Below, piece by piece: positions 11,065-46,474 of a stretch of DNA of 47,532 bases. Below the pieces are notes generated by a model. The model searched no databases. It was not told the origin of the DNA and saw only the letters and a program-made list of their open reading frames with translations. Numbering within the stretch: position 1 is the first letter of the stretch; each line of letters opens with the position of its first letter. Origin of the DNA: an uncultured bacterium (lineage in GTDB: Bacteria; Krumholzibacteriota; Krumholzibacteriia; LZORAL124-64-63); the NCBI GenBank assembly GCA_903859215.1, contig CAIOLW010000067.1, positions 1-47,532 of the forward strand. Direction: 5' to 3'. Both the position numbers and the translations under genes were made by a program.

Positions 11065-11072
11065 CTGAACCG

Positions 11073-11615: not shown

Positions 11616-11616
11616 G

Positions 11617-12939: not shown

Positions 12940-12943
12940 GCCC

Positions 12944-14464: not shown

Positions 14465-15747
14465 TGGCCATCGTGCTCGAATCCCTGGCCAAGATCGTGT
14501 TCATGTTCCTGCTGATCATGGGCATGGTGCCGGCGCTGATCTGGGCCGAGCGCAAGGGCGCCGCCTACATCCAGGACCGCACGGGCCCCAACCGCGCCTC
14601 GATCGGCGGCGTGAGGCTGGCCGGCCTGGTGCACCCGATCGCCGACGTGCTGAAGCTGGTCTTCAAGGAGGACGTGGCGCCGACCAACCGGCACCGCGCC
14701 CTGTATGCGCTGGCGCCCTGGGTCGTGATGACCGTCGCGGTGAGCACCTACGCGGTGATCCCGTTCGGCGACTACCTGACCATCGCCGGCCGGAAGATCC
14801 CGCTGGTCGTGGCCGACCTGCAGGTGGGCCTGCTCTACGTGCTGGCGGTGGCCAGCCTGGGCACCTACGGCATCGTGCTGGCCGGCTGGGCGGCCAACAA
14901 CAAGTTCACGTTCCTGGGCGGCATCCGCGCCACGGCGCAGATGATCAGCTACGAGATCAACATGGGCCTGGCCATCATGGGCCTGATGCTGATCTTCGGC
15001 AGCCTGCGCCTGACCGACATCGTGGCGGGCCAGGGCGGGCTGCTCTTCGGCTGGCTGCCGATGTGGGGCGTCGTCCTGCAGCCGCTGGGCTTCGTGCTGT
15101 TCATCACCTCGGTGTACGCCGAGACGAACCGCAACCCGTTCGACCTGCCCGAGGGCGAGTCGGAGATCGTGGCCGGCTACCACCTGGAGTACAGCTCGCT
15201 GAAGTTCGCGCTGTTCTTCATGGCCGAGTACTGCCACATGGTCGTGGGCGCGGCGATGATCAGCGCGCTGTACTTCGGCGGCTACCAGATACCGTGGCTG
15301 CCGCGGCCGATGCTTGAGAAGCACGCCGGCCTGCTGCTGCAGCTGGTGCTGGGCCTGACCGTCGCCGCGAGCCTGCTCTTCGCGGTCCTGTTCCTGCGGC
15401 GCGTGCAGCGCGAAAAGGGCAAGTTCGGCGATGCGCGCGACCGCGAGCCGGTGCTCGGCGCCGGCTTCTGGATCATCGTCGCCCTGGCGGCCGCCGGCGC
15501 GTTCGCGCTGCGGCCCGGCGACATCGGCGCGACCGGGGCCAGCGTGTTTGCCAGCCTCTTCCAGGTCGGCGCCTTCGTGGGCAAGGTCGTGTTCTTCGCC
15601 TGGCTGTTCATCTGGGTGCGCTGGACGTTGCCGCGCTTCCGCTATGACCAGCTGATGCGCCTGGGCTGGAAGGTCATGCTGCCGCTCGGGCTGGCCAACC
15701 TCGTGGGGACTGCGCTGGTCGTGGCGCTGATTGGAAACGGCAAGTGA
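14464..15747 (+). CDS. nuoH: NADH:quinone oxidoreductase subunit H (extended)
   Basis: 427-aa membrane subunit that joins the peripheral and membrane arms and forms much of the quinone tunnel. Diagnostic segments are AERKGAAYIQDRTGPNRAS near the N-terminus and ETNRNPFDLPEGESE in the cytoplasmic loop; the C-terminal RYDQLMRLGWKVMLPL is also conserved. It is about 100 residues longer than E. coli NuoH (325 aa). The excess lies between about residues 284 and 370 and appears to add two hydrophobic helices linked by a charged loop (RVQREKGKFGDARDREP). It overlaps the nuoG stop by one base. Confidence 0.95.
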   Translation: MAIVLESLAKIVFMFLLIMGMVPALIWAERKGAAYIQDRTGPNRASIGGVRLAGLVHPIADVLKLVFKEDVAPTNRHRALYALAPWVVMTVAVSTYAVIPFGDYLTIAGRKIPLVVADLQVGLLYVLAVASLGTYGIVLAGWAANNKFTFLGGIRATAQMISYEINMGLAIMGLMLIFGSLRLTDIVAGQGGLLFGWLPMWGVVLQPLGFVLFITSVYAETNRNPFDLPEGESEIVAGYHLEYSSLKFALFFMAEYCHMVVGAAMISALYFGGYQIPWLPRPMLEKHAGLLLQLVLGLTVAASLLFAVLFLRRVQREKGKFGDARDREPVLGAGFWIIVALAAAGAFALRPGDIGATGASVFASLFQVGAFVGKVVFFAWLFIWVRWTLPRFRYDQLMRLGWKVMLPLGLANLVGTALVVALIGNGK

Positions 15748-15769
15748 ATCGCCATCGGCAAGTGAGTCG
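15738..15769 (+). repeat. 18-bp-period tandem repeat across the nuoH stop
   Basis: CGGCAAGTGAATCG at 15738-15751 is repeated as CGGCAAGTGAGTCG at 15756-15769. The first copy contains the nuoH TGA; because the period is 18 bases, the second copy holds another TGA in the same frame. It looks like a small local duplication in the nuoH-nuoI spacer. Confidence 0.6.
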
Positions 15770-15784
15770 GAAGCGGGAAATGAC

Positions 15785-16291
15785 ATGAGTTTCGAGGGAT
15801 TGTCCAAGGAGTCGACCGAGAAGCGGCGCTCGCTGCTCGAGTCGATCTACCTGTGGGAGGTGGTCAAGGGGCTTGCCGTCACCGGCCGGCACCTGGTCCA
15901 CAACATCTTCCACACCGGGGACATGCCGACGATGCAGTACCCCGAGGAGAAGCGAGTCTACAGCGACCGCTTCCGCGGGCGGCACCGGCTGATGAAGCGC
16001 GAGGACGGCACGCCCCGTTGCGTGGCCTGCCAGATGTGCTCGACGTACTGCCCGGCCGACTGCATCACGATCACGGCGGCCGAGCATCCGGACCCGGCCA
16101 TCGAGAAGTACCCGGCCACGTTCGACATCGACCTGTTGCGTTGCGTGTACTGCGGGCTCTGCGAGGAAGCCTGCCCGTGCGATGCCATCCGCATGGACAC
16201 CGGCATCTACGAGATCGCGGCCGACAGCCGCGACAAGTTCGTGGTCGACAAGGAGTTCCTGCTCAACGAGCAGACCCGGGGAACGCGTTGA
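15785..16291 (+). CDS. nuoI: NADH:quinone oxidoreductase subunit I
   Basis: 168-aa ferredoxin-like subunit carrying clusters N6a and N6b between NuoG and NuoB. Two full CxxCxxCxxxCP motifs are present: CVACQMCSTYCP and CVYCGLCEEACP. The N-terminal stretch to about residue 45 is amphipathic and would lie along the membrane. ATG 15785 is chosen because GGGAA precedes it and the upstream in-frame sequence (from 15731) is low-complexity Ser/Glu made from the tandem repeat. Confidence 0.95.
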   Translation: MSFEGLSKESTEKRRSLLESIYLWEVVKGLAVTGRHLVHNIFHTGDMPTMQYPEEKRVYSDRFRGRHRLMKREDGTPRCVACQMCSTYCPADCITITAAEHPDPAIEKYPATFDIDLLRCVYCGLCEEACPCDAIRMDTGIYEIAADSRDKFVVDKEFLLNEQTRGTR

Positions 16292-16310
16292 CCCCGCGAA
16301 AGGACGACTG

Positions 16311-16813
<503 letters not shown>

Positions 16814-16823
<10 letters not shown>

Positions 16824-17119
16824 GCCTGAACCTTTGCCTGGGGCTGGCGGCCGCGATCTTCGTCGTCGGCATGACCGGCTTCGTCGTGCGGCGCAACACG
16901 CTCGTGATGCTGATGTGCATCGAGCTCATGCTCAGTTCGGTCAACCTGGTGTTCGCGGCCTTCAGTCGCCAGCTGGGCGATGCGAGCGGCCACGTCTTCG
17001 TGCTGATGAATTTCGCGGTGGCGGCGGCCGAGGCCGCCATCGGCCTGGCGATGCTCGTGGAGATCTACCGGCGCCGCCGGACGGTCGACGTCGACGAACT
17101 CAAGTCCCTGATGGAGTAG
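16814..17119 (+). CDS. nuoK: NADH:quinone oxidoreductase subunit K
   Basis: 101-aa MrpC-like membrane subunit with three helices. CIELMLSSVNLVF and AAAEAAIGLAMLVEIYRRR match the family; the glutamates in helices 2 and 3 belong to the proton path. The start is GTG 16814, which has AGGAAG 5 bases upstream and gives the usual length of about 100 residues. GTG 16820, overlapping the nuoJ stop as GTGA, is the alternative. Four bases separate it from nuoL. Confidence 0.94.
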
Positions 17120-17123
17120 AGCC

Positions 17124-19157
17124 GTGCACAGTCCCGTCTCCGAAAGCGTGATCCAGGAGAGCCTGCTGCGCTGGATCGTGCTGTTGCCCCTGCTCGGGGC
17201 AGCCATCAACGGCCTCTTGAACCGGCGGCTGCCGAAGGCCGCCGTGGGCGCCATCGCCTGCGGCGCGGTGGGCCTCTCGTTCGTCCTGTCGCTGACGGCC
17301 TTCCTGCGCCTGGCGGCGCTGCCCGCCGAGTCGCGCCTGCTGGTCGACACGGTCGCCAGGTGGATCGGCTTCGGCCCGCTGCGCGTCGACATGGGCTTCG
17401 CGATGGACCCGCTGAACGCGGTCATGGCGCTCATCGTCACGGGCGTGGGCTTCCTGATCCACGTCTACTCGCTGGGCTACATGTCGCACGACAAGGGCTT
17501 CCAGCGCTTCTTCACGTACCTGAACCTCTTCATCTTCGCGATGATGACGCTGATCCTGGGCGAGAACCTGCTCATGCTCTTCGTGGGCTGGGAGGGCGTG
17601 GGCCTCTGCTCGTACCTGCTGATCAGCTTCTGGTTCAACGAGGAAGCCAACGCGATCGCCGGCAAGAAGGCCTTCGTGGTCAACCGCATCGGCGACTTCG
17701 GCTTCCTGCTGGGCGTGTTCCTGCTGGGCGCCACGCTGCTGCCGCACCTTGGCGCGGGCGAGGGCCTGTTCAGCTTCCGCGTCATGCAGCGCCACGCCGA
17801 CGTCCTGGCCCCGGCGGCCACGGCCATCGCGCTGCTGCTGTTCGTGGGCGCCACCGGCAAGTCGGCGCAGATCCCGCTCTACATCTGGCTGCCCGACGCC
17901 ATGGCCGGCCCGACGCCCGTCAGCGCGCTGATCCACGCCGCCACCATGGTGACGGCCGGCGTCTACATGATCTGCCGCATGAACTTCCTGTTCGTGCTCT
18001 CGCCGGCGGCCATGCACGTGGTGGCGATCGTCGGCGCGGCGACCGCCCTGCTGGCGGCGACCATCGCCATGACGCAGAACGACATCAAGAAGGTGCTCGC
18101 GTACTCGACCGTCAGCCAGTTGGGCTACATGATGCTGGCCTGCGGCGTCGGCGCGTTCGCCGCCGGCATCTTCCACGTGATGACGCACGCCTTCTTCAAG
18201 GCCCTGCTGTTCCTCGGCTCGGGCTCGGTCATCCACGCGATGAGCGGCGAGCAGGACATGCGCGTCATGGGCGGCCTGTGGAAGAAGCTGCCGATCACGT
18301 TCTGGACGTTCCTGGCCGGCACCTTCGCCATCGCCGGCGTCTTTCCGCTGGCCGGGTTCTTCTCGAAGGACGAGATCCTCTGGAAGGCCTTCAGCGGCCA
18401 GGGCGGCGGCGTCGGGCTGTACGCCGTGGCGTTCCTGGTGGCCGGCCTGACGGCGTTCTACATGATGCGGCTGGTGGTCCTGACCTTCCACGGCCAGAAC
18501 CGCGCCGGCGCCGAGGTCAGGCACCACATCCACGAATCGCCCCTGACGATGACGCTGCCGCTGGTCGTGCTGGCGGTGCTCTCGGTGGTCGGCGGCTGGA
18601 TCGGCTGGCCCGCGTTCCTGGGCGGCAGCAACCGTTTCGAGCAGTGGCTCGAGCCGGTGTTCGCCGGTGGGCACCACGTGGCGGCGGCGGTGGCCGGCCA
18701 TGGCGGCGAGGCGCTGGCCGAAGGCGCGGCGGCTGCCCATGGCGCTGCGCACGAGGGGATGGGCCTCGAGCGCGCGCTGGCCGGGGCGTCGTTGACCTGG
18801 GGGCTGCTCGGCCTGTCGCTGGGCTACCTGGTCTACTCGCGGCGCACGAAGGTGGCCGACACGGTGCGCGGCATCGCGGGCGGCTGGCCGTACCGCGTGC
18901 TGCTGAACAAGTACTACGTGGACGAGGCCTACGACGGCGCCTTCATCCGGCCGGGCTTCCGGCTGTCGAAGACGGTGCTGTGGAAGACCGTCGACGCCGG
19001 CGTGATCGACGGGCTGCTGGTCAACGGCTCGGCCCTCGTCGTGGCGGTGTTCGGGTCGCTGCTGCGGTTGCTGCAGAACGGCCTGGTGCGGTTCTACGCC
19101 TGGTCCTTCACCGTGGGCGTGGCGGTGTTCGTCGTCTACCTGAGCCTGAAGGGCTAG
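17124..19157 (+). CDS. nuoL: NADH:quinone oxidoreductase subunit L
   Basis: 677-aa antiporter-like proton-pumping subunit with about 16 helices and the long lateral helix expected at the C-terminus. Conserved segments are MLFVGWEGVGLCSYLLI, GKSAQIPLYIWLPDAMAGPTPVSALIHAATMVTAGVY and DIKKVLAYSTVSQLGYM, which hold the channel lysine and glutamate. A His/Ala-rich loop (about residues 515-550) is less conserved. GTG 17124 is the only fitting start, with GGAG 7 bases upstream. Confidence 0.96.
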   Translation: MHSPVSESVIQESLLRWIVLLPLLGAAINGLLNRRLPKAAVGAIACGAVGLSFVLSLTAFLRLAALPAESRLLVDTVARWIGFGPLRVDMGFAMDPLNAVMALIVTGVGFLIHVYSLGYMSHDKGFQRFFTYLNLFIFAMMTLILGENLLMLFVGWEGVGLCSYLLISFWFNEEANAIAGKKAFVVNRIGDFGFLLGVFLLGATLLPHLGAGEGLFSFRVMQRHADVLAPAATAIALLLFVGATGKSAQIPLYIWLPDAMAGPTPVSALIHAATMVTAGVYMICRMNFLFVLSPAAMHVVAIVGAATALLAATIAMTQNDIKKVLAYSTVSQLGYMMLACGVGAFAAGIFHVMTHAFFKALLFLGSGSVIHAMSGEQDMRVMGGLWKKLPITFWTFLAGTFAIAGVFPLAGFFSKDEILWKAFSGQGGGVGLYAVAFLVAGLTAFYMMRLVVLTFHGQNRAGAEVRHHIHESPLTMTLPLVVLAVLSVVGGWIGWPAFLGGSNRFEQWLEPVFAGGHHVAAAVAGHGGEALAEGAAAAHGAAHEGMGLERALAGASLTWGLLGLSLGYLVYSRRTKVADTVRGIAGGWPYRVLLNKYYVDEAYDGAFIRPGFRLSKTVLWKTVDAGVIDGLLVNGSALVVAVFGSLLRLLQNGLVRFYAWSFTVGVAVFVVYLSLKG

Positions 19158-19169
19158 GAGGAAAGCGCT

Positions 19170-20755
<1,586 letters not shown>

Positions 20756-20756
<1 letters not shown>

Positions 20757-22270
20757 TGAACGGATTCCTTGCGCCGGCGATCGGCGACCAGCTCGACGCC
20801 CTGCTGCCGTTCCTGATCGTGGCTGGCGGCGGCCTGCTGGTCATGCTCGTGGACGCGCTCTTCCGCACGAAGCGGAAGGACCACCTGTCGCTACTGACAC
20901 TGATCGTGCTGCTGCTGTCGGTCCTGGCGCAGCTGCGCTCCGGCTTCGGTGACGAGCGCGTGCTCCTGTCGGGGATGCTGACGGTCACCGACTTCAGCCG
21001 CTTCTTCGACTTCCTGTTCGTCGGCTGCGCGGTGCTGACGACCGTGTTCGCCGGCTCGGCCTTCGACCGCGGCGGCCGGCAGCGTCCCGAGTTCTTCCCG
21101 CTGCTGCTGTTCGCGGTCCTGGGCATGATGGTGCTGGCGTCGGCGTCCGACCTGCTGTCGGTGTTCCTCGGCCTCGAGACGATGAGCCTGGCGGTCTACG
21201 TCCTGGCCGGCGGCGTGCGGGGCGACGTCCGCAGCAGCGAGGCCGGCTTCAAGTACCTCCTGATGGGCAGCTTCGCCTCGGCGTTCCTGCTGATGGGCAT
21301 GGCCCTGCTCTACGGGTTCGCGGGCGGCACGGCGTTCAGCGACATCGGGCGCGCCCTGGCGGCGGGCCCCGGCGAGCGCGGCCTGGCGGCGCTCGCCGGC
21401 GGGCTCATCCTCGTCGGCTTCGGCTTCAAGGTGGCGATGGTGCCGTTCCACATGTGGACGCCCGACGTCTACGACGGCGCCCCGGCCTACGTGACGGGCT
21501 TCATGGCCACGGCCGTCAAGGCGGCGGGCTTCGCCATCCTGACGCGCTTCGTCCTGCTGATGCAGCCGCACCTGGCCTTCACCTGGTACCCGCTCCTGGT
21601 GGGCCTGGCCGTGGTGACGATGTCGGTGGGCAACCTGGTGGCGCTGGCGCAGAACGGCATCAAGCGCATGCTGGCCTGGTCGTCGATCGCGCACGCGGGC
21701 TACCTGCTGCTGGGCGTGGTCACGCTGATCTCGCCTGCGCACGGCAACAGCGGGCAGATGATGCTGGGCCGCGAGGTGGGCGAGGCGGCCGGCTCGGCGC
21801 TGCTGTTCTACCTGCTCGGGTACAGCCTGATGAACCTGGCCGCGTTCGGCGTGATCGGCGCCCTGTCGAAGGGCGGCAGGGAAGCGGACGAGATCGAGCG
21901 CTACGCCGGACTCAGCCGCCGCAAGCCGCTGGCGGCCGCGGTGCTCGCCATCGCGATGCTGTCGCTGGCCGGCATCCCGCCGATGGTCGGGTTCATGTCG
22001 AAGTTCTACCTGTTCTCGGCGGTCGTGCGCGCGGGGCTGGTGCCGCTGGCCATCATCGGCGTCATCAACTCGCTGTTGTCGGTGTACTACTACCTGCGCA
22101 TCCTCGTCGTGATGTACATGAAGAAGCCCGAAGAGGGCGGCTACGACGATGCCGATACCGTCGCCGTCAGCGCGGCCGCCGTGCTGGCCGGCCTGATCCT
22201 GCTGCTGGGCGTCATGCCCGAGGGCGTGCACCGCGCCGCCCAGGAGATCTTCCGGCAGATCACGTTCTAG
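20756..22270 (+). CDS. nuoN: NADH:quinone oxidoreductase subunit N
   Basis: 504-aa antiporter-like proton-pumping subunit, last Complex I gene of the operon. SVFLGLETMSLAVYVLAG and KVAMVPFHMWTPDVYDGAPAYVTGFMATAVKAAGF are diagnostic; NGIKRMLAWSSIAHAGYLL follows. ATG 20756 is preferred, with GGAG about 8 bases upstream; GTG 20753, one codon earlier, is possible. With it the operon is complete: A, B, CD, E to N, with no accessory gene inserted. Confidence 0.96.
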
Positions 22271-35489: not shown

Positions 35490-37082
35490 ATGCCCCGGGG
35501 CATCGCCCGCAAGCTCGTGCTCTACCTGACCGCGATCATCATCCTGGTCGAGGGCCTCTTCGCGTTCACCGAGATCCGCGCCCAGCGCCGGCAGCTGCTG
35601 CACGAGATGACGCTCAGCGCCGAGCTCGCCTCGCAGACCATGGTCGCCACGACCTGGAACGCGATGCTGGAGGACCGGCGCGAGTACGCCTACCAGATGA
35701 TGGAGAACGTGGCCCGGCAGCCGACCATCGACAAGGTCCGCATGTTCAACAAGGCCGGGCGCGTCACGTTCTCGACGGCGGGCGACAAGGGCAACGTCGT
35801 GGACATCAACGCCGAGGCCTGCAACCTGTGCCACGCGGCCGGGCAGCCGCTGGTGCACGTGGACATGCCGTCGCGCACGCGCATCTACACGCGCGAACAC
35901 GGACAGCGCGTGCTGGGCCTGATCACACCCATCTACAACGAGCCGTCGTGCAGCACGGCGGCCTGCCACGCGCATCCGGCGTCGGTGCACGTGCTGGGCG
36001 TGGTGGACGTGACGATGCCCCTGGCGCGTGTCGACGGCCAGATGCGCGAGCTGGCGATGCGCTCGGCGTTGATGTCGCTGTTGTCGATCCTGGTCGTCTC
36101 CTTCTTCGTGATCGTCTTCGCGCGCCGCTTCGTGCAGCAGCCGGTGCGCAAGCTGATCGCCGCGACGAAGACGATGGGCCTGGGCGACCTGGACAAGCCG
36201 ATCGAGATCTCGGCCGACGACGAACTGGGGGACCTGGCCAATTCGTTCCGCACCATGCAGGACCGCCTGAGCTCGTCGACCGACCAGTTGCGCGAGTTCA
36301 ACGACACGCTCGAACGCCGCGTCGAGGAACGCACGCAGCGCCTGCGCGAGGCGGAGCGGAAGCTGATCCAGAGCGACCGGCTGGCCTCGCTGGGGCAGTT
36401 GGCGGCGAGTGTGGCGCACGAGATCAACAACCCGCTGGCCGGCGTCATCAATTTCGGCAAGCTGATGCAGCGGCTGACCGTGGACAACGAGGTGCCGCCC
36501 GCGCGCATGGGCGACTTCCGCACCTACCTGGGCCACGTCGTGACCGAAACCGAGCGGTGCGCGCGCATCGTGCGCGACCTGCTGGTCTTCGCGCGGCGCT
36601 CGGATCCGTCGCAAGCTCCGCACGACCTGAACGAGATCGTCCGGCGGACGCTGTCGGTCATCAACCATCGCCTGGAACTGGGCGCGGTGACGCCGGTGCT
36701 GGAACTGGCCGAGGGATTGCCGCCGCTGAGCTGCGATGCCTCGCAGATGCAGCAGATCATCATCAACCTGGTGCTCAACGGCGCGGAGGCCATGGCGCAG
36801 GGCAGCGTCACGATCCGCACCCGGCACGACCAGGCCGCGGGCACGATCGTGATGGAGGTGGCCGACACCGGCGCCGGCATTGCGCCGGAGCACCTGGCGC
36901 GCATCTACGATCCCTTCTTCAGCACGAAGAAGGAGGGGCAGGGCACGGGCCTGGGTCTGGCGGTGGTGTACGGGATCATCAACGCCCACAACGGACAGAT
37001 CGACGTGGACACCGCCGTGGGACAGGGGACGACGTTCATCGTGACGCTGCCGGTGGGCGGCGGCGATGCCCGGCCATGCTGA
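35490..37082 (+). CDS. Membrane sensor histidine kinase with heme-c-like motifs in the periplasmic domain
   Basis: 530-aa inner-membrane kinase. Helices at about 8-27 and 193-212 enclose a periplasmic sensor of about 165 residues. That domain contains CNLCH (111-115), a canonical CXXCH heme-c site, and CSTAACH (154-160), a CX4CH variant. HAMP (about 213-265) and a coiled coil follow, then HisKA with H310 in SVAHEINNPLAG and an HATPase domain (NLVLNGAEAM, DTGAGI, GQGTGLGLAVVYGI). The HEINNPL type usually pairs with NtrC-like regulators, and one is encoded two genes on. Heme binding would make it a redox or gas sensor; it is inferred from motifs only. ATG 35490 has GGAGGA upstream. It overlaps the next gene by 7 bases. 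Confidence 0.9.
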   Translation: MPRGIARKLVLYLTAIIILVEGLFAFTEIRAQRRQLLHEMTLSAELASQTMVATTWNAMLEDRREYAYQMMENVARQPTIDKVRMFNKAGRVTFSTAGDKGNVVDINAEACNLCHAAGQPLVHVDMPSRTRIYTREHGQRVLGLITPIYNEPSCSTAACHAHPASVHVLGVVDVTMPLARVDGQMRELAMRSALMSLLSILVVSFFVIVFARRFVQQPVRKLIAATKTMGLGDLDKPIEISADDELGDLANSFRTMQDRLSSSTDQLREFNDTLERRVEERTQRLREAERKLIQSDRLASLGQLAASVAHEINNPLAGVINFGKLMQRLTVDNEVPPARMGDFRTYLGHVVTETERCARIVRDLLVFARRSDPSQAPHDLNEIVRRTLSVINHRLELGAVTPVLELAEGLPPLSCDASQMQQIIINLVLNGAEAMAQGSVTIRTRHDQAAGTIVMEVADTGAGIAPEHLARIYDPFFSTKKEGQGTGLGLAVVYGIINAHNGQIDVDTAVGQGTTFIVTLPVGGGDARPC

Positions 37083-37618
37083 TCGGGCTGTTGCCGGTCG
37101 AAGGGGTTGCGGGCGCGGACATGGACGCGCTGGAAGCCTTCGTGACACGGCACTACGGGTGCGCGACGCGGCGGCTGCCGGACCTGGCGATGCCGGCCGA
37201 CGGGTACGACGCGCACCGGTCGCAGTACGAAGCGACGGCGCTCCTGAAGGCGGCGCTGCTCGTGCGGCCGGCAGACGTCGACCGGCTACTGGTGGTGACG
37301 GACAAGGACATCTTCATCCCGATGCTGACCTTCATCTTCGGGCAGGCGCAGGTGGAGGGACCGACGGCCCTGCTCTCGCTGGCGCGCCTGAAGCAGGAGT
37401 TCTACGGGATGACGGGAAGGCGCGACCTCATGCTTGAGCGCGCGCACAAGGAGATCGTGCACGAACTGGGGCACACCTTCGGCCTGGTGCACTGCCAGGA
37501 CCGGCAGTGCGCCATGGCGCTCTCGATCAACGTGACGAACATCGACATCAAGCGCGACTCGCTGTGTGGCGGGTGCGCGCGGAACCTGGCCGGGCGCCTC
37601 GAGGCGCTGGGCTGGTAG
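37076..37618 (+). CDS. amzA: Archaemetzincin-type zinc metallopeptidase
   Basis: 180-aa cytosolic zinc peptidase of family M54. The complete signature HELGHTFGLVHCQDRQCAM is at 129-147: zinc ligands H129, H133, H139, catalytic E130, and the archaemetzincin-specific cysteines C140 and C145. A second CxxC pair (C164, C167) completes the structural zinc site known for the family. Most members are archaeal or vertebrate and few bacterial ones have been studied; physiological substrates are unknown. ATG 37076 overlaps the kinase stop by 7 bases, and the response regulator starts 37 bases after its stop, so it is inside the two-component operon. Confidence 0.93.
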   Translation: MLIGLLPVEGVAGADMDALEAFVTRHYGCATRRLPDLAMPADGYDAHRSQYEATALLKAALLVRPADVDRLLVVTDKDIFIPMLTFIFGQAQVEGPTALLSLARLKQEFYGMTGRRDLMLERAHKEIVHELGHTFGLVHCQDRQCAMALSINVTNIDIKRDSLCGGCARNLAGRLEALGW

Positions 37619-37655: not shown

Positions 37656-39014
37656 ATGAACAGCACGTGGAGGATCCTGGTGGTGGACGACGAGGTGGCC
37701 ATGCGCGAGTCGCTGGCGGCCTGGTTGCGGGAGGACGGCTATGTCGTCGACGGCGCGGCGTCCGGCCGCGAGGCGGTCGAGATGGCGCGCGCCGCCCCCT
37801 ACGACATCTACTTCCTGGACCTGAAGATGCCGCCGGGCATCGGCGGCATCGAGACGATGATCGAGATCCGGAAGCTGCAACCCGAGGCGACGGTGGTCAT
37901 CATCACCGCCTATGCGACCGTGGACACCGCGATCAACGCCCTGAAGGAGGGCGCGCAGGAGTACATGGTCAAGCCGTGCAACCCGGAGGAGATCTCGCTT
38001 TTCGTCAAGAGGACGATCGAGGTCAAGAACCTGCAGCGCGAGAACCAGTACCTCAGGCAGAAGCTGACCCGGCACTACTCGTTCCAGGACATCATCAGCA
38101 AGAACGCGGCGATGCACGCCATCTTCGAGCTGGTGAAGGAAGTGGCCAGCCAGCGCAGCACGGTGCTGATCCAGGGCGCCAGCGGCACGGGCAAGGAACT
38201 GGTGGCCCGGGCGCTGCACGAGGCGGGCGGGCGCGCGTCGCGGCCGTTCGTGGGGGTTTCCTGCGCGGCGCTGGCCGAGACGCTGCTGGAGTCCGAGCTG
38301 TTCGGGCACGAGAAAGGCGCGTTTACCGGCGCCGTCGCGCGCAAGCGCGGCAAGTTCGAAGTGGCCGGCGGCGGCTCGATCTTCCTGGACGAGATCGGCG
38401 ACATCTCACCGAAGCTGCAGATGGACCTTTTGCGGGTGCTGCAGGAGCGCCGGTTCTTCCGCCTGGGCGGCACCGAGGAGATCCCGATGGAGGCGCGCAT
38501 CATCGCCGCCACGAACCGCAACCTGCAGGAGGCCGTCGAGAGGGGCGACTTCCGCGAGGACCTCTTCTACCGCCTGAACGTCATCAACATCAGGCTGCCG
38601 AGCCTCTGCGAGCGGCGCGAGGACATCCCGCTGCTGGTCAACCACTTCATCGAGCGGCTGGCGCTCGAGGCCGGCAAGCAGGTGCGCGATGTCTCCAAGC
38701 CGGCGTTGAAGCTGCTGATGGACCACGACTGGCCGGGCAACGTCCGCGAGCTGGAGAACACCGTCGAGCGGGCCATCGTGACGGCGCGCAGCGCGACGCT
38801 GGACGTGGCCGACTTCGACTTCCTGGCGCAATCGCCCCGGGGCGGGGCGAAATGGAACGCTCCGGACGGGATGTCGCTGGCCGAGATCGAGAAGCACGCC
38901 GTCGAGTCGGTGCTCGACCGCACGGGCGGCAACATCAAGCTGGCCTCGGAGATCCTGGGTGTGGATCGCTCGACGCTGTACGCCATGGTGCGGCGGCACA
39001 ACATCCCGCGATAG
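37656..39014 (+). CDS. NtrC-family sigma54-dependent response regulator
   Basis: 452-aa transcription activator. The receiver domain (1-120) has D11/D12, phospho-acceptor D55 in YFLDLKMPP, T84 and K106. The AAA+ domain has Walker A GASGTGKE (174-181), the sigma54-contacting GAFTGA (221-226) and Walker B FLDEIG (243-248). The C-terminus is a Fis-type helix-turn-helix (VLDRTGGNIKLASEILGVDRSTLYAMVRR). ATG 37656 follows AAAGGGGAG. It should be phosphorylated by the upstream kinase. Likely targets include the sigma54-type promoters found about 7 kb downstream, but that is inference. A hairpin follows its stop. Confidence 0.95.
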   Translation: MNSTWRILVVDDEVAMRESLAAWLREDGYVVDGAASGREAVEMARAAPYDIYFLDLKMPPGIGGIETMIEIRKLQPEATVVIITAYATVDTAINALKEGAQEYMVKPCNPEEISLFVKRTIEVKNLQRENQYLRQKLTRHYSFQDIISKNAAMHAIFELVKEVASQRSTVLIQGASGTGKELVARALHEAGGRASRPFVGVSCAALAETLLESELFGHEKGAFTGAVARKRGKFEVAGGGSIFLDEIGDISPKLQMDLLRVLQERRFFRLGGTEEIPMEARIIAATNRNLQEAVERGDFREDLFYRLNVINIRLPSLCERREDIPLLVNHFIERLALEAGKQVRDVSKPALKLLMDHDWPGNVRELENTVERAIVTARSATLDVADFDFLAQSPRGGAKWNAPDGMSLAEIEKHAVESVLDRTGGNIKLASEILGVDRSTLYAMVRRHNIPR

Positions 39015-39110: not shown

Positions 39111-39953
39111 CTACGGCTCGAGGCAGAGGTCGGCCAGGATGGCGTCCCAGTCCGCGTCCGGGTAGGCGCCCATGAGGTCGTCGACCAGCTCGCCGCCGTC
39201 GGCCAGCGCCAGGGCCTCGCCCGGGCGGGTCAGGCGCGCCTGCAGCAGCTCGAGCTCGCGCAGCATCCAGACGCGTGCTTCGGTGGCGCGCAGCAGCTGG
39301 TCGAGCCTGGCCTTGCCGTCGTTCGGGCGCAGGCGGTAGAGGCGGCCGCCCTCGTAGTCGCCGACGGCGACGACCGTGCCGGCGATGGGCGTCGTGATAT
39401 GGGCGTGGACATGGCCGCGCTGCAGGTCGGCCACGGCCGTGCCGGCCATCAGGCGCGTGCCGACGCCCGGCACCGTCACGCGGTCGGGGTTGCCGATGCA
39501 GGAGCGGAGCAGGTCGTCGACGCCGACGTCGTACGTGCCGTCGGTACGGGCCTCGACCCAGGTGTGGCCGCGGTGGTAGAGGCGGCTGTCGGGCGGGGTC
39601 GCGGGCGCGGCGGGCGCCGCCGCCAAGGTGGCCTCGCGGGTAGTTTCGTCTCCGCCGCCGGCGGCGGCCAGGGCGCGGTGCTGTTCGCAGTTGCCGCAGG
39701 CGAACTCGTGGCCGCAGACCTTGGCGTCGAACGTGCCGTCGAACTCGTGGCGGCAGGTCCGGCGCTCGGTCGACATCTCGGCGAACGACTCGTGCCAGGC
39801 GATGTCGGATTCGCGACGCTTGTTCATGTCACGCCGCGCTCGCAGCGAGGCGACAACGACGGTGCTCAGCACCACCGCCAGGACGGTGTAGAAGATACCC
39901 AGGAACACGATGTGTCCCGTATCCCAGTGGAACTCGTAGGCTGTGGGCAGCAT
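39111..39953 (-). CDS. Membrane-anchored protein with degenerate glycine-cleavage H-like domain
   Basis: 280-aa protein closing the Qrc-like operon. One helix (residues about 15-37) anchors it. A Cys/His cluster follows: C67 in CRHEF, C80 in KVCGHEF, C86 and C89 in ACGNC, suited to a metal or Fe-S site. After an Ala/Pro linker, residues 124-200 read like an H-protein/lipoyl domain (YHRGHTWVEARTDGTYDVGV, VTVPGVGTRLMAG, ITTPIAGTVVAVG). The lysine that would carry lipoate is missing; its place reads LQRGHVHAHI. It therefore cannot shuttle lipoyl groups as GcvH does, and a structural role in the complex is more likely. It starts 3 bases after the NrfD stop. Confidence 0.7.
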   Translation of the reverse strand: MLPTAYEFHWDTGHIVFLGIFYTVLAVVLSTVVVASLRARRDMNKRRESDIAWHESFAEMSTERRTCRHEFDGTFDAKVCGHEFACGNCEQHRALAAAGGGDETTREATLAAAPAAPATPPDSRLYHRGHTWVEARTDGTYDVGVDDLLRSCIGNPDRVTVPGVGTRLMAGTAVADLQRGHVHAHITTPIAGTVVAVGDYEGGRLYRLRPNDGKARLDQLLRATEARVWMLRELELLQARLTRPGEALALADGGELVDDLMGAYPDADWDAILADLCLEP

Positions 39954-39956
39954 GAC

Positions 39957-41201
39957 TCAGTTACTCCCGGTGGTGGTTTGGAGCTCCCGCTCGCGCGGGA
40001 ACAGGTTCAGGTAACGGAACGACAGCGAATAGAGGATGACGCCGTAGGCGACGACGCCGGCCAGCACGCCCCACTCCTGCTGCGAGGGCCAGTAGATCAT
40101 GAAGCGGTCGAACGACATCGTCGGCACCGACAGCGTCTGCAGCGTGAAGACGAAGCGGTTGAAGGCGACGCCGAAGCACGTCAGGAAGCCGCCGGCGATG
40201 AGCCAGGGCATCTTCTCGACGCGACGGCGGTTCAGCAGGATCGTCGCCGGCAGCAGGCCGAAGACGGTCAGTTCCAGGAAGAGCACCCAGGCGCCGAACA
40301 TGTCGCTGCGGTAGAACTCGGCGGCGTCGAAGCCCTTGCCAGGCAGCGTGACCATGATCCAGACCACGGTGTCGGCCACCTTGGCGATGATGTAGGTCGA
40401 CAGCAGGATGCCGGACAGGCGGCCCAGGCGGCTGAGCACGAAGTCGTCGACCAGCTTCTTCCGGGTGACGCCCTGCACGATCATCGTGATCAGCATGATG
40501 AACGACGGCCCGGCCGAGATGGCCGACCAGATGAACAGGAAGAACGTGGTCGGCCAGATGCCGACGCCTTCACGGTAGGCGAAGGGGCGCCCGTTCAGCA
40601 CGCCGAACATCCCGCCCAACGATCCCTGGTGGAAGAAGCTGAGGAAGGCGCCGACGCCGGCGAAGACCACCATCAGCTTGTGCAGGTTGAACTCGAGCAC
40701 CGTCGCGCCGGGCACCGTGCGCAGGCGGCGGTTCTTCAGCACGATGGGGATGTACTCGATCAGCAGCACCAGCAGGTAGCAGGTGATGCAGAACGTCACC
40801 TCGGTCAGCATCGAGTGGACGTTGGCGTGCCAGAACGCGAACCAGGCGCGGACGGGCTGCCCCACGTCGATCGCCAGCGTCACGATGGCCCCGCTGTAGC
40901 AGACGAAGCCGACGATCACCGCGGTGTTGAGCACCTGCTTGAACTCGTGGCGGCGCATCAGGTAGGTCATGAAGCCCAGGAAGAAGGCGCCCGCGCCCAG
41001 CGCGATGATCGCCAGGTCGAGGATGATCCACAATCCGAACGCGAACCGGTTGTCCATGTTCGTGTGGTAGAGGCCGTCGCGGAACAGCTGCGTGGCCGAG
41101 GTGCCGCCCCAGGCCGCCAGCAGCAGCCACGGCAGCAGCCACAGCAGGAAGCGGGGCAGGGTGGTGCGATCGAGGCCGCGCTGGATGAGTTGCCGGTCCA
41201 T
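39957..41201 (-). CDS. NrfD/PsrC-family quinone-interacting membrane subunit (QrcD-like)
   Basis: 414-aa integral membrane protein with about 9-10 helices and no cofactor motif, as expected for NrfD/PsrC/QrcD, which exchange electrons between quinone and the partner Fe-S subunit. Typical pieces are an N-terminal helix (LLWLLPWLLLAAW), AIDVGQPVRAWFAFWHANVHSMLTEVTF, and FFLFIWSAISAGPSFIML. ATG 41201 is chosen because AAGGAG lies 9 bases upstream and it starts just after the Fe-S gene; ATG 41231 would overlap that gene by 26 bases. It acts with the two preceding gene products. Confidence 0.9.
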   Translation of the reverse strand: MDRQLIQRGLDRTTLPRFLLWLLPWLLLAAWGGTSATQLFRDGLYHTNMDNRFAFGLWIILDLAIIALGAGAFFLGFMTYLMRRHEFKQVLNTAVIVGFVCYSGAIVTLAIDVGQPVRAWFAFWHANVHSMLTEVTFCITCYLLVLLIEYIPIVLKNRRLRTVPGATVLEFNLHKLMVVFAGVGAFLSFFHQGSLGGMFGVLNGRPFAYREGVGIWPTTFFLFIWSAISAGPSFIMLITMIVQGVTRKKLVDDFVLSRLGRLSGILLSTYIIAKVADTVVWIMVTLPGKGFDAAEFYRSDMFGAWVLFLELTVFGLLPATILLNRRRVEKMPWLIAGGFLTCFGVAFNRFVFTLQTLSVPTMSFDRFMIYWPSQQEWGVLAGVVAYGVILYSLSFRYLNLFPRERELQTTTGSN

Positions 41202-41205
41202 GTCG

Positions 41206-41985
41206 TCAGGCTCCTTCCGGGCCGTCGCCATGGCCGCGCACCCGGTCCAGACGGCTCAGGCCGATCCGGCGGATCCACGGTTCACGGGACAGGTACGTGA
41301 CCTTGGGTGCGGTGCCGAGGGCTTCCAGGAGGCGGAAGGCCTCGGGTTTCTTTTCGAGCGCGGCGATGGGGCCGCCCTCTTCAAGGCGGTTGCCGAACGT
41401 GATGGCGCCGTGGGGGCAGGCTTCGGCGCAGGCCGGCGTGTAGTGCACGGGCTCGGCGGCGGGGCGGCCCTCGGCGGCGGCCAGTTCGCGCGCGCGGTCG
41501 AGGCGGCCATGGCAGAAGTTGCATTTCTCGGCCACCCCCCGCATGCGCGGCGCGACGTCCGGGTTCAGCGTGTCCTGCAGGCCCTCGGGCCACTTCGGGT
41601 CGAACCAGTTGAAGTAGCGCGCGTGGTAGGGGCAGGCCGCCATGCAGTAGCGGCAGCCCATGCAGCGCGTGGGGATCTGCCCGATGATGCCCGTCGACTC
41701 GTCCAGCTGCACGGCGGTGACCGGGCAGACGTGGATGCACGGCGCGTGTTCGCAGTGCTGGCAGGGGATGGGCACGGTGACCGTGCGGTGGTCGGGCCAC
41801 GCCTTGCCGTTGTCGACGCGCTGCGTGCGCATCCAGGTCAGTCCGCGGTTCTCGAGGGCCTCGGGCGGCGGCACCGACACGTTGTTCTCGATCGCGCAGG
41901 CCACGTTGCACGTGCCGCAGCCGACGCACTTGTCGAGGTCGATCACCATCGCGTAGCAGACGGTGGCCTTGCTATGCGTTTCCAT
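41206..41985 (-). CDS. Four-cluster ferredoxin subunit (PsrB/QrcC-like)
   Basis: About 259-aa electron-transfer subunit. Sixteen cysteines form four cluster motifs in the DmsB/PsrB arrangement (numbering from ATG 41988): C21, C24, C27, C31; C76, C79, C84, C88; C109, C112, C115, C119; and C156, C159, C187, C191. No signal peptide is seen; it would be carried out with the Tat-borne MopB partner. AGGAGG stands 3 bases before ATG 41988 and 6 before ATG 41985, so the second is preferred. It overlaps the end of the MopB-like gene by 14-17 bases. It should pass electrons between the MopB-like subunit and NrfD. Confidence 0.93.
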   Translation of the reverse strand: METHSKATVCYAMVIDLDKCVGCGTCNVACAIENNVSVPPPEALENRGLTWMRTQRVDNGKAWPDHRTVTVPIPCQHCEHAPCIHVCPVTAVQLDESTGIIGQIPTRCMGCRYCMAACPYHARYFNWFDPKWPEGLQDTLNPDVAPRMRGVAEKCNFCHGRLDRARELAAAEGRPAAEPVHYTPACAEACPHGAITFGNRLEEGGPIAALEKKPEAFRLLEALGTAPKVTYLSREPWIRRIGLSRLDRVRGHGDGPEGA

Positions 41986-44191
41986 CATGAGCCTCCTGCA
42001 GGTCCGCGCGGACCAGGCGCCACACGGGGCGTTCGGCGGCCCCGCACAGGTCGGGGATGTCGGTCCGGTCGTCCGCGGACGCGGCGGGATCGCCCATGTC
42101 TGCGGGGTCGGGGCCCGCGGCGATTCGCGCCACGTCGGGCGGCAGCGAGTTGTCGAAGCGGACCTTGACGCGACGACGGCCGTGCGCCGTCGTCAACAGG
42201 GCCGACTTGCCTTCGGCCAAGCCGAGCGCGCGGGCCGTGGTCGCGCTGACTGCGAGCTGGCGCGAGCCCGGCTGCAGGCCGGATTCGCGGTAGAGCTTGT
42301 TGAGCACCGGGGCGGTGATCGCGCCGGCCGCCGGGGCCAGGCCGCCGCCGGCCATCAGCAGCAGCGAGCCGGTGGCGCCGGGTTTCGCGGCGTCGGCGCG
42401 GCCGCCCGCCAGCGAACGCCAGCGCGCCGCGAGGCCGCCGCCCTGGCCCAGCGGGCGCACATCGCGGTCGGCGAGCGTGAGCGTGGCCTTGTCGGACCAG
42501 CGGGCGCCGCGGGCCAGCGCTCCGGCCAGCAGGTCGGGATCGCTCATGGCCGCGACGTCGGTGGTGTTGCCGTCGGCCGGGTCGAAGACCTGGCCGCTGC
42601 CGCGCGACTGCAGCACGCCGGCGCGCCGCTTGAGCTCGGCTTCGTGGCCGGACTTGCCTCCCTCGGGCGGGACGACGAGGCCCGAGGCCGCTTCCAGCTG
42701 CGCCAGCCACTCGGCCGGGTGCAGCGCGAACGGGGCGGGAACGGCCACGGCCGTCGCCCATGAATAAGAGGAGCGCGCCGCCAGCGCGGGCGCCGGCACG
42801 TCCTCGACCCACTCGCCGGGGGCAAACACGGGCAGGATCAGGTCGGCGGGCGTGCCCGCGGCGCCGCCGGCGTATGGCGACAGCGCGACGAGCAGGCCGT
42901 CGGGGCCGCGCAGCTTGCGCCGCAGCTGTTCAGCGGAGACCGGGACGCCGGGGAACGAGCCGTCGACCAGCAGCACGTCGAGCGAGCCGTCGGGGATGTC
43001 GGACAGCGAACGTGCTGCCGGCCCGGCCGGCTCGTCGAACAACGCGGTGTCGGCCGGGCGAACGCCGAGTGCGCCGTCGGGGCCGACCGCGCCGAGCAGC
43101 AGGTTCAGGTTCCAGATGGCGGCTTCCTCTTCGCTCCCCAGCGGGCCGCCGCCGGCGTCGCCGACGCCCAGGACCAGCGCCGGGCGTCCGGCCGCCAGTT
43201 CGCGCGCGGTGTCGCGCAGCTGCGCGGGCGTCAGGCCGCTGTTCGCGGCGACGCGCTCGGGCGCGAAGTCGGCCAGAACGGTGCGCAGCGTGCTGCCGTT
43301 CTCGTGCGGCAGGTCGGCCAGGGCGTTCACGCGCGCGTCGGCCGCCAGCGCCTCGAAGACCAGCACATGGGCCAGTGCGAGGGCCACCGGCGCCTCGCTG
43401 CCCGGTCGGGCCGGCAGCCAGCGGTCGGCGCGCGCCGCGGTGATGGTGGCGGCGGGATCAACCTGGATCAGGCGCGGGCCGCCGGCCGCATGCGGGACGA
43501 TGTCGCGGCCGCGCCAGCCGGCGGTCAGTGGCGCGCCGAAGTTCAGCACGGTGCGGGCGCGCGCCGGGTCCGGGGCCGGGGCCAGCGCGCCGACGGTCGC
43601 CATTCCGGCGAACGCGGCGGCCGAGGCCTGCCATGCGTCCGGGGCCGTCGCGTAGATGCCGCCGCCCTGGCGCGCGAGGAACTCGCGGTACAGTCGCGAC
43701 ATCGCGCGGCCGGGCCGCAGGTCGACGATGGCAATGCTGTCGCCGGCGCCGCGGCTGCGGCAGGCGGCCAGGCGTTGGCCCAGTTCACCAGTCGTGGCGT
43801 CGGCGTCGACGATGCGCCACGCGGGGTCGGCTGCGGCGCGGGCGCGCCGCGCCACGCCGCGCACGCGCGACGGGTGGTAGCGCATCTGCGCCGCGGCCAG
43901 GCCGAGCGGGCACAGCGTGCCGGCGGCGGCCGGGTCGCCGACCACGGGCCACGCCGACACGAACGACGCGCCGATCAGGCGCGCGCGCATGCCGCAACCG
44001 ACCGGGCACAGCTGGCACGTCGTGAACATGTGGCTGACCGGCCCGCGCGGCGGGCGCGCGATCCATGACCAGTTCTGCGTCCAGATGGCGGCATCATCGA
44101 GCAGCTTCCAGGGCAGGGGGGAGAGCACCGAGCCCACCACGGCCCCACCCATGAACTTGAGTAGACTCCGTCTCGTAAGGTCCAGCGTCAC
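41972..44191 (-). CDS. MopB-superfamily (molybdopterin oxidoreductase-like) subunit, QrcB-like
   Basis: 739-aa periplasmic subunit with a twin-arginine signal (residues 1 to about 28, TRRSLLKFMGG). C59, C62, C66 (CQLCPVGC) and C94 (LCPLG) form the N-terminal [4Fe-4S] site of MopB enzymes. Beyond that the fold is recognisable (VLNFGAPL, DLILPVFAPGEWVED, LAEGKSALLTTAHGRRRVKV), but the usual Mo-ligand Cys/Ser/Sec segment is not evident near residues 180-200. The Desulfovibrio QrcB subunit likewise binds no Mo. Active-site chemistry is therefore doubtful, and an electron-relay role is favoured. GTG 44191 has GGAGGC upstream. It is larger than QrcB. Confidence 0.82.
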   Translation of the reverse strand: MTLDLTRRSLLKFMGGAVVGSVLSPLPWKLLDDAAIWTQNWSWIARPPRGPVSHMFTTCQLCPVGCGMRARLIGASFVSAWPVVGDPAAAGTLCPLGLAAAQMRYHPSRVRGVARRARAAADPAWRIVDADATTGELGQRLAACRSRGAGDSIAIVDLRPGRAMSRLYREFLARQGGGIYATAPDAWQASAAAFAGMATVGALAPAPDPARARTVLNFGAPLTAGWRGRDIVPHAAGGPRLIQVDPAATITAARADRWLPARPGSEAPVALALAHVLVFEALAADARVNALADLPHENGSTLRTVLADFAPERVAANSGLTPAQLRDTARELAAGRPALVLGVGDAGGGPLGSEEEAAIWNLNLLLGAVGPDGALGVRPADTALFDEPAGPAARSLSDIPDGSLDVLLVDGSFPGVPVSAEQLRRKLRGPDGLLVALSPYAGGAAGTPADLILPVFAPGEWVEDVPAPALAARSSYSWATAVAVPAPFALHPAEWLAQLEAASGLVVPPEGGKSGHEAELKRRAGVLQSRGSGQVFDPADGNTTDVAAMSDPDLLAGALARGARWSDKATLTLADRDVRPLGQGGGLAARWRSLAGGRADAAKPGATGSLLLMAGGGLAPAAGAITAPVLNKLYRESGLQPGSRQLAVSATTARALGLAEGKSALLTTAHGRRRVKVRFDNSLPPDVARIAAGPDPADMGDPAASADDRTDIPDLCGAAERPVWRLVRADLQEAHDGNA

Positions 44192-44216
44192 CGCGTCGGC
44201 CTCCGTCGTTGCGAAC

Positions 44217-44885
44217 CTATTTGTGGCACATCAGGCAATGGTCCCGGACACCGCGCTCGCGGTGGCAGTCGGTGCAGTCGCTCATCTTCATCGAATCCCA
44301 GGGATTCGGGCCGCCCCCGCTGATGCGCGGGCCCCAGATGTTGCGGCTGTACGTGCTGATCCGGTTGAACTGGTAGACCGGGGTGCCGGTCGACAGTCCC
44401 TGGTCCCCGTGGCAGCGTCGGCATTCGATGCCGGCCCGCCGCACGTGGGGGGCGTGGGAGAAGTACACGTTGTCCGGCTGGCGCGCGTAGACGAGCCAGG
44501 GGATCTCGCGGCCCGGGGTGACGAATTCGTCGACCAGCCTGCGCTCGGCCTTCGACGTGCCCTGGGCCTCGCTGTGGCAGTCGGCGCAGGCCTTCACCGC
44601 GGGGATGCCGGCGAAGCTGCCGTCGGCCCGGAAGCCGTGGCAGTTATCGCACGTCATGCCGGCGTCCTTCGTGTGCACGGCGTGGTTGAAGGCCAGCGGC
44701 TGTTCCTGGTGTCCGTACAGGAAGAAGGGCAGGGCCACCCAGCCGGCGAGCAGGCCGGCCGACAGGCCGAGCAGCGGCCACACGCGGGCCCACGCCGCGT
44801 TGCGGCGGGCGCTGCGCTCTTGCTCCGGGTTCGTCGTGGGGATGATCTCGATGCGAGGTTTCGGGTCACCGTCGTTGTCGTTCAC
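44217..44885 (-). CDS. Membrane-anchored multiheme cytochrome c (five CXXCH), QrcA-like
   Basis: 222-aa protein with one N-terminal helix (35-57) and a periplasmic domain. Five CXXCH sites are seen: 79-83, 100-104, 155-159, 204-208 and 217-221. Paired histidines precede two of them (FNHAVH, 66-71; FSHAPH, 142-147), the class III / c7-type pattern that gives bis-histidine hemes. QrcA of Desulfovibrio has six hemes; this has one fewer and ends directly after the fifth site. GTG 44885 overlaps the preceding stop as GTGA. It would connect the complex to periplasmic cytochromes. Confidence 0.9.
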   Translation of the reverse strand: MNDNDGDPKPRIEIIPTTNPEQERSARRNAAWARVWPLLGLSAGLLAGWVALPFFLYGHQEQPLAFNHAVHTKDAGMTCDNCHGFRADGSFAGIPAVKACADCHSEAQGTSKAERRLVDEFVTPGREIPWLVYARQPDNVYFSHAPHVRRAGIECRRCHGDQGLSTGTPVYQFNRISTYSRNIWGPRISGGGPNPWDSMKMSDCTDCHRERGVRDHCLMCHK

Positions 44886-45838
44886 GCGGATGCGCCTCCG
44901 TCACGATAGGAAAAGAACTCGTGGTGCAATCGGATCAGGGTGCGGCGGTCCAGCACCTCGGACAGTCGTCCTTCGGCGTGGCCGCCATCGGTCGCCAAAT
45001 CGCTGCCAGTCGTCAGGTCGTGGCCGCGCCGCTCGTCCAGGCACGTGTGGACGAACTGCGCCAGCCGATCGCGTTCACGCTGCAGCCAGCGGCGAGCCGC
45101 CACGCCGCGAAGCAGCAGGTGGGCGCCGACGGGGCTGGCGTCGTCGGCCACGGCGCCGGGGACCACGGGCAAACCGGCGAACAGCCAGCCGCGCCCGTAG
45201 GGATCCTGCGAGACCGTGCCGGGCGAAGCCGCGACGCGGGCATTCGTCTCGAATTCCCGCATGGCCAGCGGGAAGACCATCTCCAGGTCCATGCCGCCGA
45301 CGCGGATGAGGGCCGAGGGCCGGGCCTCGTCACGCCGGGTCGGGAAGGTGACCGACTCGACGGTGCCGAGCGTGTGGCAGAAGAAGGCGTCGACGCCGAT
45401 GTGCACCCGCTGGCTGTCGCCGTCGTCCAGCCACATGTGGTTGGGCGCGTAGGCCAGTTCATCGGGCAGGGCCAGCGTGGGGTCGGCGATCAGGTCATCG
45501 CCGTCCGCGGGCGCCGCGTGGACGCGCGGCTCGGCCAGCGCCAGGTAGAGGTCACAGTACCGGTGGCCGTCGCCGCCGCAGCGCGTGGTGGCGGCTTTGT
45601 TGCACGGGATCAGCTTCCGCACCGGGGCCAGGTCGCAGTAGTGGACATCCTCGACGCAGAGGTTGGGGCAGTGGTCCTGGACGGCGACGGCGGCCTTGTC
45701 GCGCATCAGCCGGCACTCGAGGTACTCGCGACTGAGGCAACGTTCGATGGCGCTGCTGTCGGCGCTGAGCGGGATCATCTTCATGCCGTAAAGGCCGCAG
45801 TATTTCACGTTCAGCTTGCGGAGAAATGGACACAGCAT
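44882..45838 (-). CDS. Cysteine-rich protein with degenerate glycine-cleavage H-like domain
   Basis: 318-aa protein heading the Qrc-like operon. Ten cysteines lie in the first 95 residues (C3, C14, C34, C42, C57, C61, C68, C79, C87, C95), a likely metal or Fe-S binding region of no family I recognise. Residues about 127-222 follow the H-protein plan: YAPNHMWLDD, VHIGVDAFFCHTLGTVESV and QDPYGRGWLFAGL. The lipoyl lysine is lost; its position reads about AMREFETNARV. The last 90 residues are helical and Arg/Asp-rich. There is no signal peptide, so it is probably cytosolic. ATG 45838 has AAGGAGG upstream. Its TGA overlaps the cytochrome start. Confidence 0.75.
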   Translation of the reverse strand: MLCPFLRKLNVKYCGLYGMKMIPLSADSSAIERCLSREYLECRLMRDKAAVAVQDHCPNLCVEDVHYCDLAPVRKLIPCNKAATTRCGGDGHRYCDLYLALAEPRVHAAPADGDDLIADPTLALPDELAYAPNHMWLDDGDSQRVHIGVDAFFCHTLGTVESVTFPTRRDEARPSALIRVGGMDLEMVFPLAMREFETNARVAASPGTVSQDPYGRGWLFAGLPVVPGAVADDASPVGAHLLLRGVAARRWLQRERDRLAQFVHTCLDERRGHDLTTGSDLATDGGHAEGRLSEVLDRRTLIRLHHEFFSYRDGGASA

Positions 45839-45876: not shown

Positions 45877-45892
45877 AGCAAGAGCAGGACCA
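45877..45892 (-). promoter_or_regulatory. Sigma54-like -24/-12 element for the Qrc-like operon
   Basis: Minus-strand TGGTCCTGCTCTTGCT keeps the invariant GG and GC at the correct spacing and matches TTGCW fully, but departs from TGGCACG at three positions. Transcription would start near 45866, and AAGGAGG and the ATG at 45838 follow. Weaker than the divergent element at 46124. Confidence 0.45.
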
Positions 45893-46123: not shown

Positions 46124-46139
46124 TGGCAGGGCAATTGCT
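46124..46139 (+). promoter_or_regulatory. Sigma54 (RpoN) promoter, -24/-12
   Basis: TGGCAGGGCAATTGCT matches TGGCACGRNNNTTGCW at every defined position but one (C to G). The GG and GC are correctly spaced. Transcription would begin near 46151, 48 bases before the small membrane-protein gene. An NtrC-type activator is encoded at 37656. Confidence 0.65.
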
Positions 46140-46198: not shown

Positions 46199-46474
46199 AT
46201 GGACACCGGCAACATGACCTTCGAGGAGATCCTCTTCAACGGTCGCTATCACATCATCGGCGCGGTGATGTTCCTGGTCTTCGTCGCCGCCTTCGCCCGC
46301 GAAGTCATCCGCGAGCTGGCCGCGACCGTGGCCGAGCGTCGCCGTGTGGCGCATCGCCACACCATGGGTGTCTTCGTTCCCGACATGATGCTCGGCGCGA
46401 CGATGACCGATGGCGGCGAGCCGGTAGAGCAGGAGAAGAAGCAGACGGACGAGACGCCCACGCCGCAGGACTGA
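46199..46474 (+). CDS. Small membrane protein of unknown function, divergent from the Qrc-like operon
   Basis: 91-aa protein. One strongly hydrophobic helix (about residues 18-33, HIIGAVMFLVFVAAFA) follows a short N-terminus (TFEEILFNGRY). After it come a basic segment (RRRVAHRHT) and an acidic, Pro/Thr-rich tail. By the positive-inside rule the basic tail lies in the cytoplasm. I recognise no family. ATG 46199 has AGGAG 6 bases upstream, and a sigma54-type promoter lies 60-75 bases before it. The shared control region makes it a plausible small subunit or assembly factor for the Qrc-like complex; this is inference from position alone. Confidence 0.65.
   Translation: MDTGNMTFEEILFNGRYHIIGAVMFLVFVAAFAREVIRELAATVAERRRVAHRHTMGVFVPDMMLGATMTDGGEPVEQEKKQTDETPTPQD

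Follow-up and report, generated by a model that had tools for sequence, protein, structure and literature searches.

An operon of six genes in the window, the whole 47,532-nucleotide stretch of DNA that was analysed, is predicted from its sequence to encode a Qrc-type menaquinone/cytochrome c oxidoreductase (QrcABCD) together with a dedicated accessory pair, H1 and H2, built on a glycine-cleavage H protein (GcvH) domain that would no longer be open to lipoylation. The most likely reading, to which we give a probability of roughly 0.4, is that H1 and H2 serve the quinone complex as regulatory subunits in the cytoplasm. According to the gene listing of the window, the six genes lie on the minus strand in the order H1-QrcA-QrcB-QrcC-QrcD-H2; core and GcvH domains were identified by Pfam, NCBIfam and PDB sequence searches, and structural matches are given as target-normalised TM-scores of AlphaFold2 models.

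44882-45838, minus strand: H1 (Pfam GCV_H, 24.6 bits; TM-score against GcvH 0.80; 59 of 60 loci)
44217-44885, minus strand: QrcA, membrane-anchored cytochrome c with five CxxCH motifs (NCBIfam NF041781, 220.6 bits, cut-off 180)
41972-44191, minus strand: QrcB, molybdopterin-oxidoreductase-like subunit (NF041783, 214.3 bits, under the cut-off of 440)
41206-41988, minus strand: QrcC, iron-sulfur subunit (NF041782, 330.2 bits, under the cut-off of 400)
39957-41231, minus strand: QrcD, NrfD-type membrane subunit (NF041784, 555 bits, under the cut-off of 570)
39111-39953, minus strand: H2 (Pfam GCV_H, 35.2 bits; TM-score against GcvH 0.76-0.79; 75 of 75 loci)

The original prediction, made from the letters alone, had proposed a Qrc-like core in QrcA-B-C-D order, GcvH-like genes at both ends, and spacing given by overlaps of 4-17 bases and a 3-base gap. 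The core is borne out: only QrcA passes its NCBIfam equivalog cut-off, and the best match of QrcB, QrcC and QrcD is in each case their own Qrc model. So are the ends, where both proteins exceed the Pfam GCV_H gathering score of 22.2. The spacing had to be amended in part. The overlaps of 4 bases (H1/QrcA) and 17 bases (QrcB/QrcC) and the 3-base spacing of QrcD and H2 stand, but QrcA and QrcB are separated by a 25-base gap and the longest reading frame of QrcD runs 26 bases into QrcC; a start at an internal ATG would leave the two genes slightly apart instead.

The same four core subunits occur in the same order in QrcABCD of Nitratidesulfovibrio (Desulfovibrio) vulgaris, to which this locus adds the two GcvH-like partners and a linked kinase triad. 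Five CxxCH motifs are present in all 64 QrcA homologues, whereas the D. vulgaris protein has six haems (PMC8076601). QrcB, whose N-terminus is twin-arginine-like, keeps C59, C62, C66 and C94 (C-x2-C-x3-C-x27-C) in 66-67 of 68 sequences; this spacing is that of the first [4Fe-4S] cluster in its superfamily, whereas D. vulgaris QrcB is reported to be cofactor-free. Among the D. vulgaris residues that have been mutated, QrcC Y113 and QrcD D70, Y110, S138 and Y150 are essential (PMC13059093). By a near-constant offset, in an alignment built without the D. vulgaris sequence, these correspond to QrcC Y114 and QrcD D72, Y112, S140 and Y152, all of which, together with QrcD D122 and R359, which likewise match positions mutated in D. 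vulgaris, are invariant across 76 sequences. Because the quinone-reduction and proton-uptake residues of QrcC and QrcD are conserved, the complex looks competent for quinone chemistry. A search of the host genome returned no clear formate dehydrogenase, and the hydrogenase result was a split match only. The same contig also carries a respiratory complex I cluster (window 9123-22270, plus strand). Elsewhere in the host genome lies a second, distant QrcC/QrcD-like pair (L088:6319-8680, G000:C257), beside which no GcvH-like neighbour was detected.

We then considered what the two flanking proteins are. AlphaFold2 models, built from 54 aligned homologues for H1 and 65 for H2, had pLDDT values of 85.1 and 88.5 and a pTM of 0.81 each, and in the PDB both match GcvH structures best. 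H1, H2 and GcvH thus share a fold and a sequence family, yet the pair departs from GcvH in lacking the lipoyl lysine, in having an additional Cys-rich N-terminus or membrane helix and a further C-terminal region with a DGG motif, and in being linked to respiratory genes. The lipoyl position is G182 in H1, where none of 54 homologues has lysine, and H181 in H2, where 5 of 65 do. Two residues before that site, which is not the lipoylation position, H2 homologues have lysine in 34 of 65 and arginine in 19 of 65, the H2 of the window having arginine. The gcvH equivalog TIGR00527 scores 29.1 bits for H1 and 30.9 bits for H2, below its cut-off of 115.85, and the true GcvH of the host, which retains the ESVKA motif, is encoded on another contig of an assembly of 391 (the window being C67). 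A role for H1 and H2 in glycine cleavage or lipoate chemistry was ruled out by the lysine loss, the low gcvH score and the conserved linkage. The Pfam domain name, GCV_H, is what would speak for ordinary glycine-cleavage H proteins that lie here by chance; with the lysine lost, about 30 bits against 116 for the equivalog, a true GcvH elsewhere in the genome and a linkage conserved across phyla, we regard this as wholly improbable.

H1 consists of an N-terminal Cys domain, a GcvH domain at about residues 124-222, a C-terminal helix and a DGG motif; by inspection it shows no sign of a signal peptide or of a membrane helix and is soluble. Ten cysteines fall within residues 1-95, and eight of them (C3, C14, C34, C42, C57, C68, C87 and C95) are invariant in 57 sequences. 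H2 has a single N-terminal membrane helix (residues 12-44 in the model), then a Cys/His cluster (C67, H69, C80, C86 and C89, each in 94-97% of 74 sequences), a GcvH domain at about residues 121-210, and DGG. The loss of the lysine from both proteins, the ten-cysteine N-terminus of H1 and the helix and Cys/His cluster of H2 had all been proposed from the letters alone and are confirmed here. Since a strongly positive stretch comes after the helix, the positive-inside rule places the head of H2 probably in the cytoplasm. DGG is 97-100% conserved near the C-terminus of H1 and H2, and [AT]DGG is also found near the C-terminus of the small membrane protein encoded at 46199-46474; one might speculate that the shared motif is a protease target or a docking signal. 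A role in a defence system was set aside, as PADLOC returned no match for H1, H2 or the archaemetzincin described below.

As their conserved cysteines could ligate iron-sulfur clusters, H1 and H2 might be extra cytoplasmic electron-transfer subunits. This is very unlikely, because QrcD is free of cofactors and its quinone site is periplasmic (PMC13059093), leaving electrons with no known route into the cytoplasm. A Cys-rich, cytoplasmic H1 encoded by the first gene would also suit an assembly or maturation factor, for example one inserting iron-sulfur clusters into QrcC or QrcB before export, and dedicated cytoplasmic chaperones do serve related molybdoenzyme-like complexes (PMC4464133). We consider this account of the pair improbable, though less so than electron transfer: Pfam and NCBIfam searches found no match to NarJ-type or other chaperone families in H1 or H2, and a membrane anchor fits such a factor less well.

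To define the distribution of the locus, we searched genome contigs with a QrcD alignment. The scan, seeded with Krumholzibacteriota QrcD, favours that lineage and is uninformative on the classical Qrc of sulfate reducers; it yielded 80 loci from Krumholzibacteriota, Eisenbacteria, Acidobacteriota, Ignavibacteria/Bacteroidota, KSB1, Kryptoniota and Myxococcota. The closest QrcD relatives, in uncultured bins, are 94-98% identical, and the next, in Candidatus Krumholzibacteriia, is 76% identical; on this basis the host would belong to Krumholzibacteriota. No Desulfobacterota Qrc appeared among these loci, the matches labelled 'Deltaproteobacteria' grouping with Myxococcota. H2 directly follows QrcD wherever there is room to see it (75/75), H1 directly precedes QrcA at 59 of 60 loci (all but L139, from a Myxococcales bin), and all six genes occur in order at 56 of the 80. 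This linkage is far above chance, and predicted Qrc relatives with a fixed H1/H2 pair occur in several phyla. The original prediction had named a fold unlike GcvH, a lysine at the lipoyl site or homologous operons without both genes as grounds for abandoning it; none of these was found.

Gene linkage alone fits a subunit, a regulator and an assembly factor alike. Near-perfect co-occurrence and order, the translational overlap of H1 with QrcA, the 3 bases between QrcD and H2 and the membrane helix of H2 could all be accounted for if the pair were structural subunits of an enlarged Qrc, stabilising QrcD from the cytoplasmic side without sensing. This is a possible reading, if less likely than the regulatory one: the Qrc of sulfate reducers is described with four subunits, and that of D. 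vulgaris was isolated and works with four (PMC13059093, PMC6303296).

The genes around the operon bear on this choice. The conserved block proved larger than first read; the six-gene operon stood, and a small membrane protein and a triad of kinase, archaemetzincin and regulator were added to it.

46199-46474, plus strand: small one-helix membrane protein ending LGATMTDGGE, with homologues upstream of H1 at at least 51 of 57 loci
46124-46139, plus strand: sigma-54-like site TGGCAGGGCAATTGCT upstream of the small membrane protein (15.2 of 15.9, uncalibrated scheme)
45877-45892, minus strand: weaker sigma-54-like site TGGTCCTGCTCTTGCT, 39-54 bases upstream of H1 (12.9 of 15.9, uncalibrated scheme)
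37656-39014, plus strand: NtrC-type sigma-54 response regulator, convergent with the operon (Pfam Sigma54_activat, Response_reg, HTH_8)
37076-37618, plus strand: archaemetzincin-like peptidase, M54 (Pfam Peptidase_M54, 84.3 bits, cut-off 24.4)
35490-37082, plus strand: sensor histidine kinase (Pfam HisKA, HATPase_c, HAMP)

The small membrane protein is divergent from the operon here and on the operon strand in most loci; clustering of flanking reading frames gave TMADGGE as the family ending. The NtrC-type regulator was found at 34 of the 47 loci with room, and the full triad at 32 of the 47 with at least 4.5 kb downstream, being absent within 4.5 kb in about a third. The extracytoplasmic region of the kinase carries CxxCH and CX4CH motifs, both present in 38 of 45 homologues, which are possible haem c sites. 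Every one of 43 archaemetzincin homologues at these loci has the HExxHxxGxxHC motif and the full Cys motif. Upstream sigma-54-like sites scoring at least 12 of 15.9 in our own, uncalibrated scheme occur at 22 of 36 loci, where mononucleotide shuffles predict 4.9; no sigma-70 promoter was found by an upstream scan. The triad was also seen at three loci without a detected NrfD gene (L180, L183 and L186).

GcvH-like proteins that by inspection lack the lysine also flank a simpler NrfC-NrfD pair, a module after which the same triad frequently comes. One of its H-like proteins has an N-terminal membrane helix; another, at L175, L176 and L181, is soluble and carries the motif CxWMxAG...C..C. In the tree, H1, H2 and true GcvH form one group each with strong support, and the soluble H-like proteins of the second module group with H1 with modest support (84/80). 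Two genomes encode fusions to receiver domains. One has a membrane-anchored protein with the receiver between the helix and a lipoyl-less GcvH domain (L182:7635-8786). The other has a soluble receiver-GcvH protein and a membrane-anchored one (L190:5571-6350 and 6441-7562), likewise lipoyl-less. In both genomes the fusions lie beside a haem-motif kinase and an NrfC-NrfD pair. Such fusions were found only beside the second kind of module and none beside Qrc. At L182:10388-10756, between the NrfD-type gene and the kinase, lies a gene for a small Cys-rich protein with no family above cut-off. Of 78 genomes in the phylum, 18 have such H-like genes, and 16 of these encode archaemetzincin; among the 60 that lack them, 1 does (Fisher p ~1e-13, indicative only, since kinship is ignored and the classes were read from score lists after the linkage had been seen).

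These observations weigh on the alternatives. Receiver-domain variants and a recurring kinase triad are not expected of pure scaffolds, and for assembly factors the receiver fusions again fit less well, and NrfC-NrfD modules without QrcB have H-like proteins too. The wider context of triad, receiver fusions and second NrfC-NrfD module points more to a regulatory role. The GcvH-like domain beside an NrfD-type subunit is constant, and the N-terminal module, a Cys cluster or a receiver, varies; the simplest reading would be an input-output protein whose N-terminal part senses and whose GcvH domain acts on the quinone complex. On the regulatory reading, the helix of H2 would tether it next to QrcD, its head projecting into the cytoplasm, where H1 would also be located, and the GcvH domains of both would bind the NrfD-type subunit from its cytoplasmic side, close to where protons are taken up. 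As input modules, the N-terminal parts (metal- or redox-binding Cys clusters here, receivers in some relatives) would adjust how active or how stable the complex is. Expression would be governed by the haem-motif kinase and NtrC regulator acting through sigma-54 promoters, and the archaemetzincin would act on a component, either processing or removing it. More tentatively, lipoyl-less GcvH may be a class of output domain that docks on NrfD-type quinone complexes and governs them directly from the cytoplasmic side, with interchangeable inputs (Cys clusters or phospho-receivers) and a dedicated haem-motif kinase, NtrC regulator and archaemetzincin, amounting to post-translational two-component control of respiration at the level of the complex.

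To our knowledge, alternative complex III has no GcvH-like subunit. It likewise combines a cytochrome, a cofactor-less MopB-like part, FeS and NrfD-type subunits (PMC6303296), but its MopB-like and FeS parts are fused in ActB (PMC6303296), unfused here, and its NrfD-type subunits are two, ActC and ActF (PMC8076601). LbpA of Hdr-like sulfur oxidation (PMC6067878) is also a GcvH-like protein with an obligate link to a redox system distinct from glycine cleavage; compared by description, LbpA binds lipoate, whereas H1 and H2 are not modifiable at that position. The qrc cluster of Desulfococcus multivorans adjoins ccsAB (PMC5109826). In Acidobacteria, qrcABCD has been noted, with transcription detected under anoxia (PMC10564751); glycine cleavage is nowhere mentioned in that paper according to a search of its text. 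A literature search covering few subscription journals and no bioRxiv found no account of this arrangement, no paper with both GcvH and NrfD and none joining Qrc, menaquinone reductase and glycine cleavage.

A 2021 survey placed QrcD only in Deltaproteobacteria (PMC8076601); the loci described here would make Qrc broader than described, with relatives bearing a fixed accessory pair in several phyla, and their H1 and H2 genes are probably being mistaken for those of glycine cleavage. The peptidase shares the HExxHxxGxxHC and four-Cys motifs of archaemetzincins, a family whose biological importance in bacteria is little known (PMC3427221), and its place here within a kinase-regulator-respiratory gene set gives bacterial archaemetzincins a recurring, testable genomic context. 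The recurring set suggests an undescribed mode of control for a respiratory complex.
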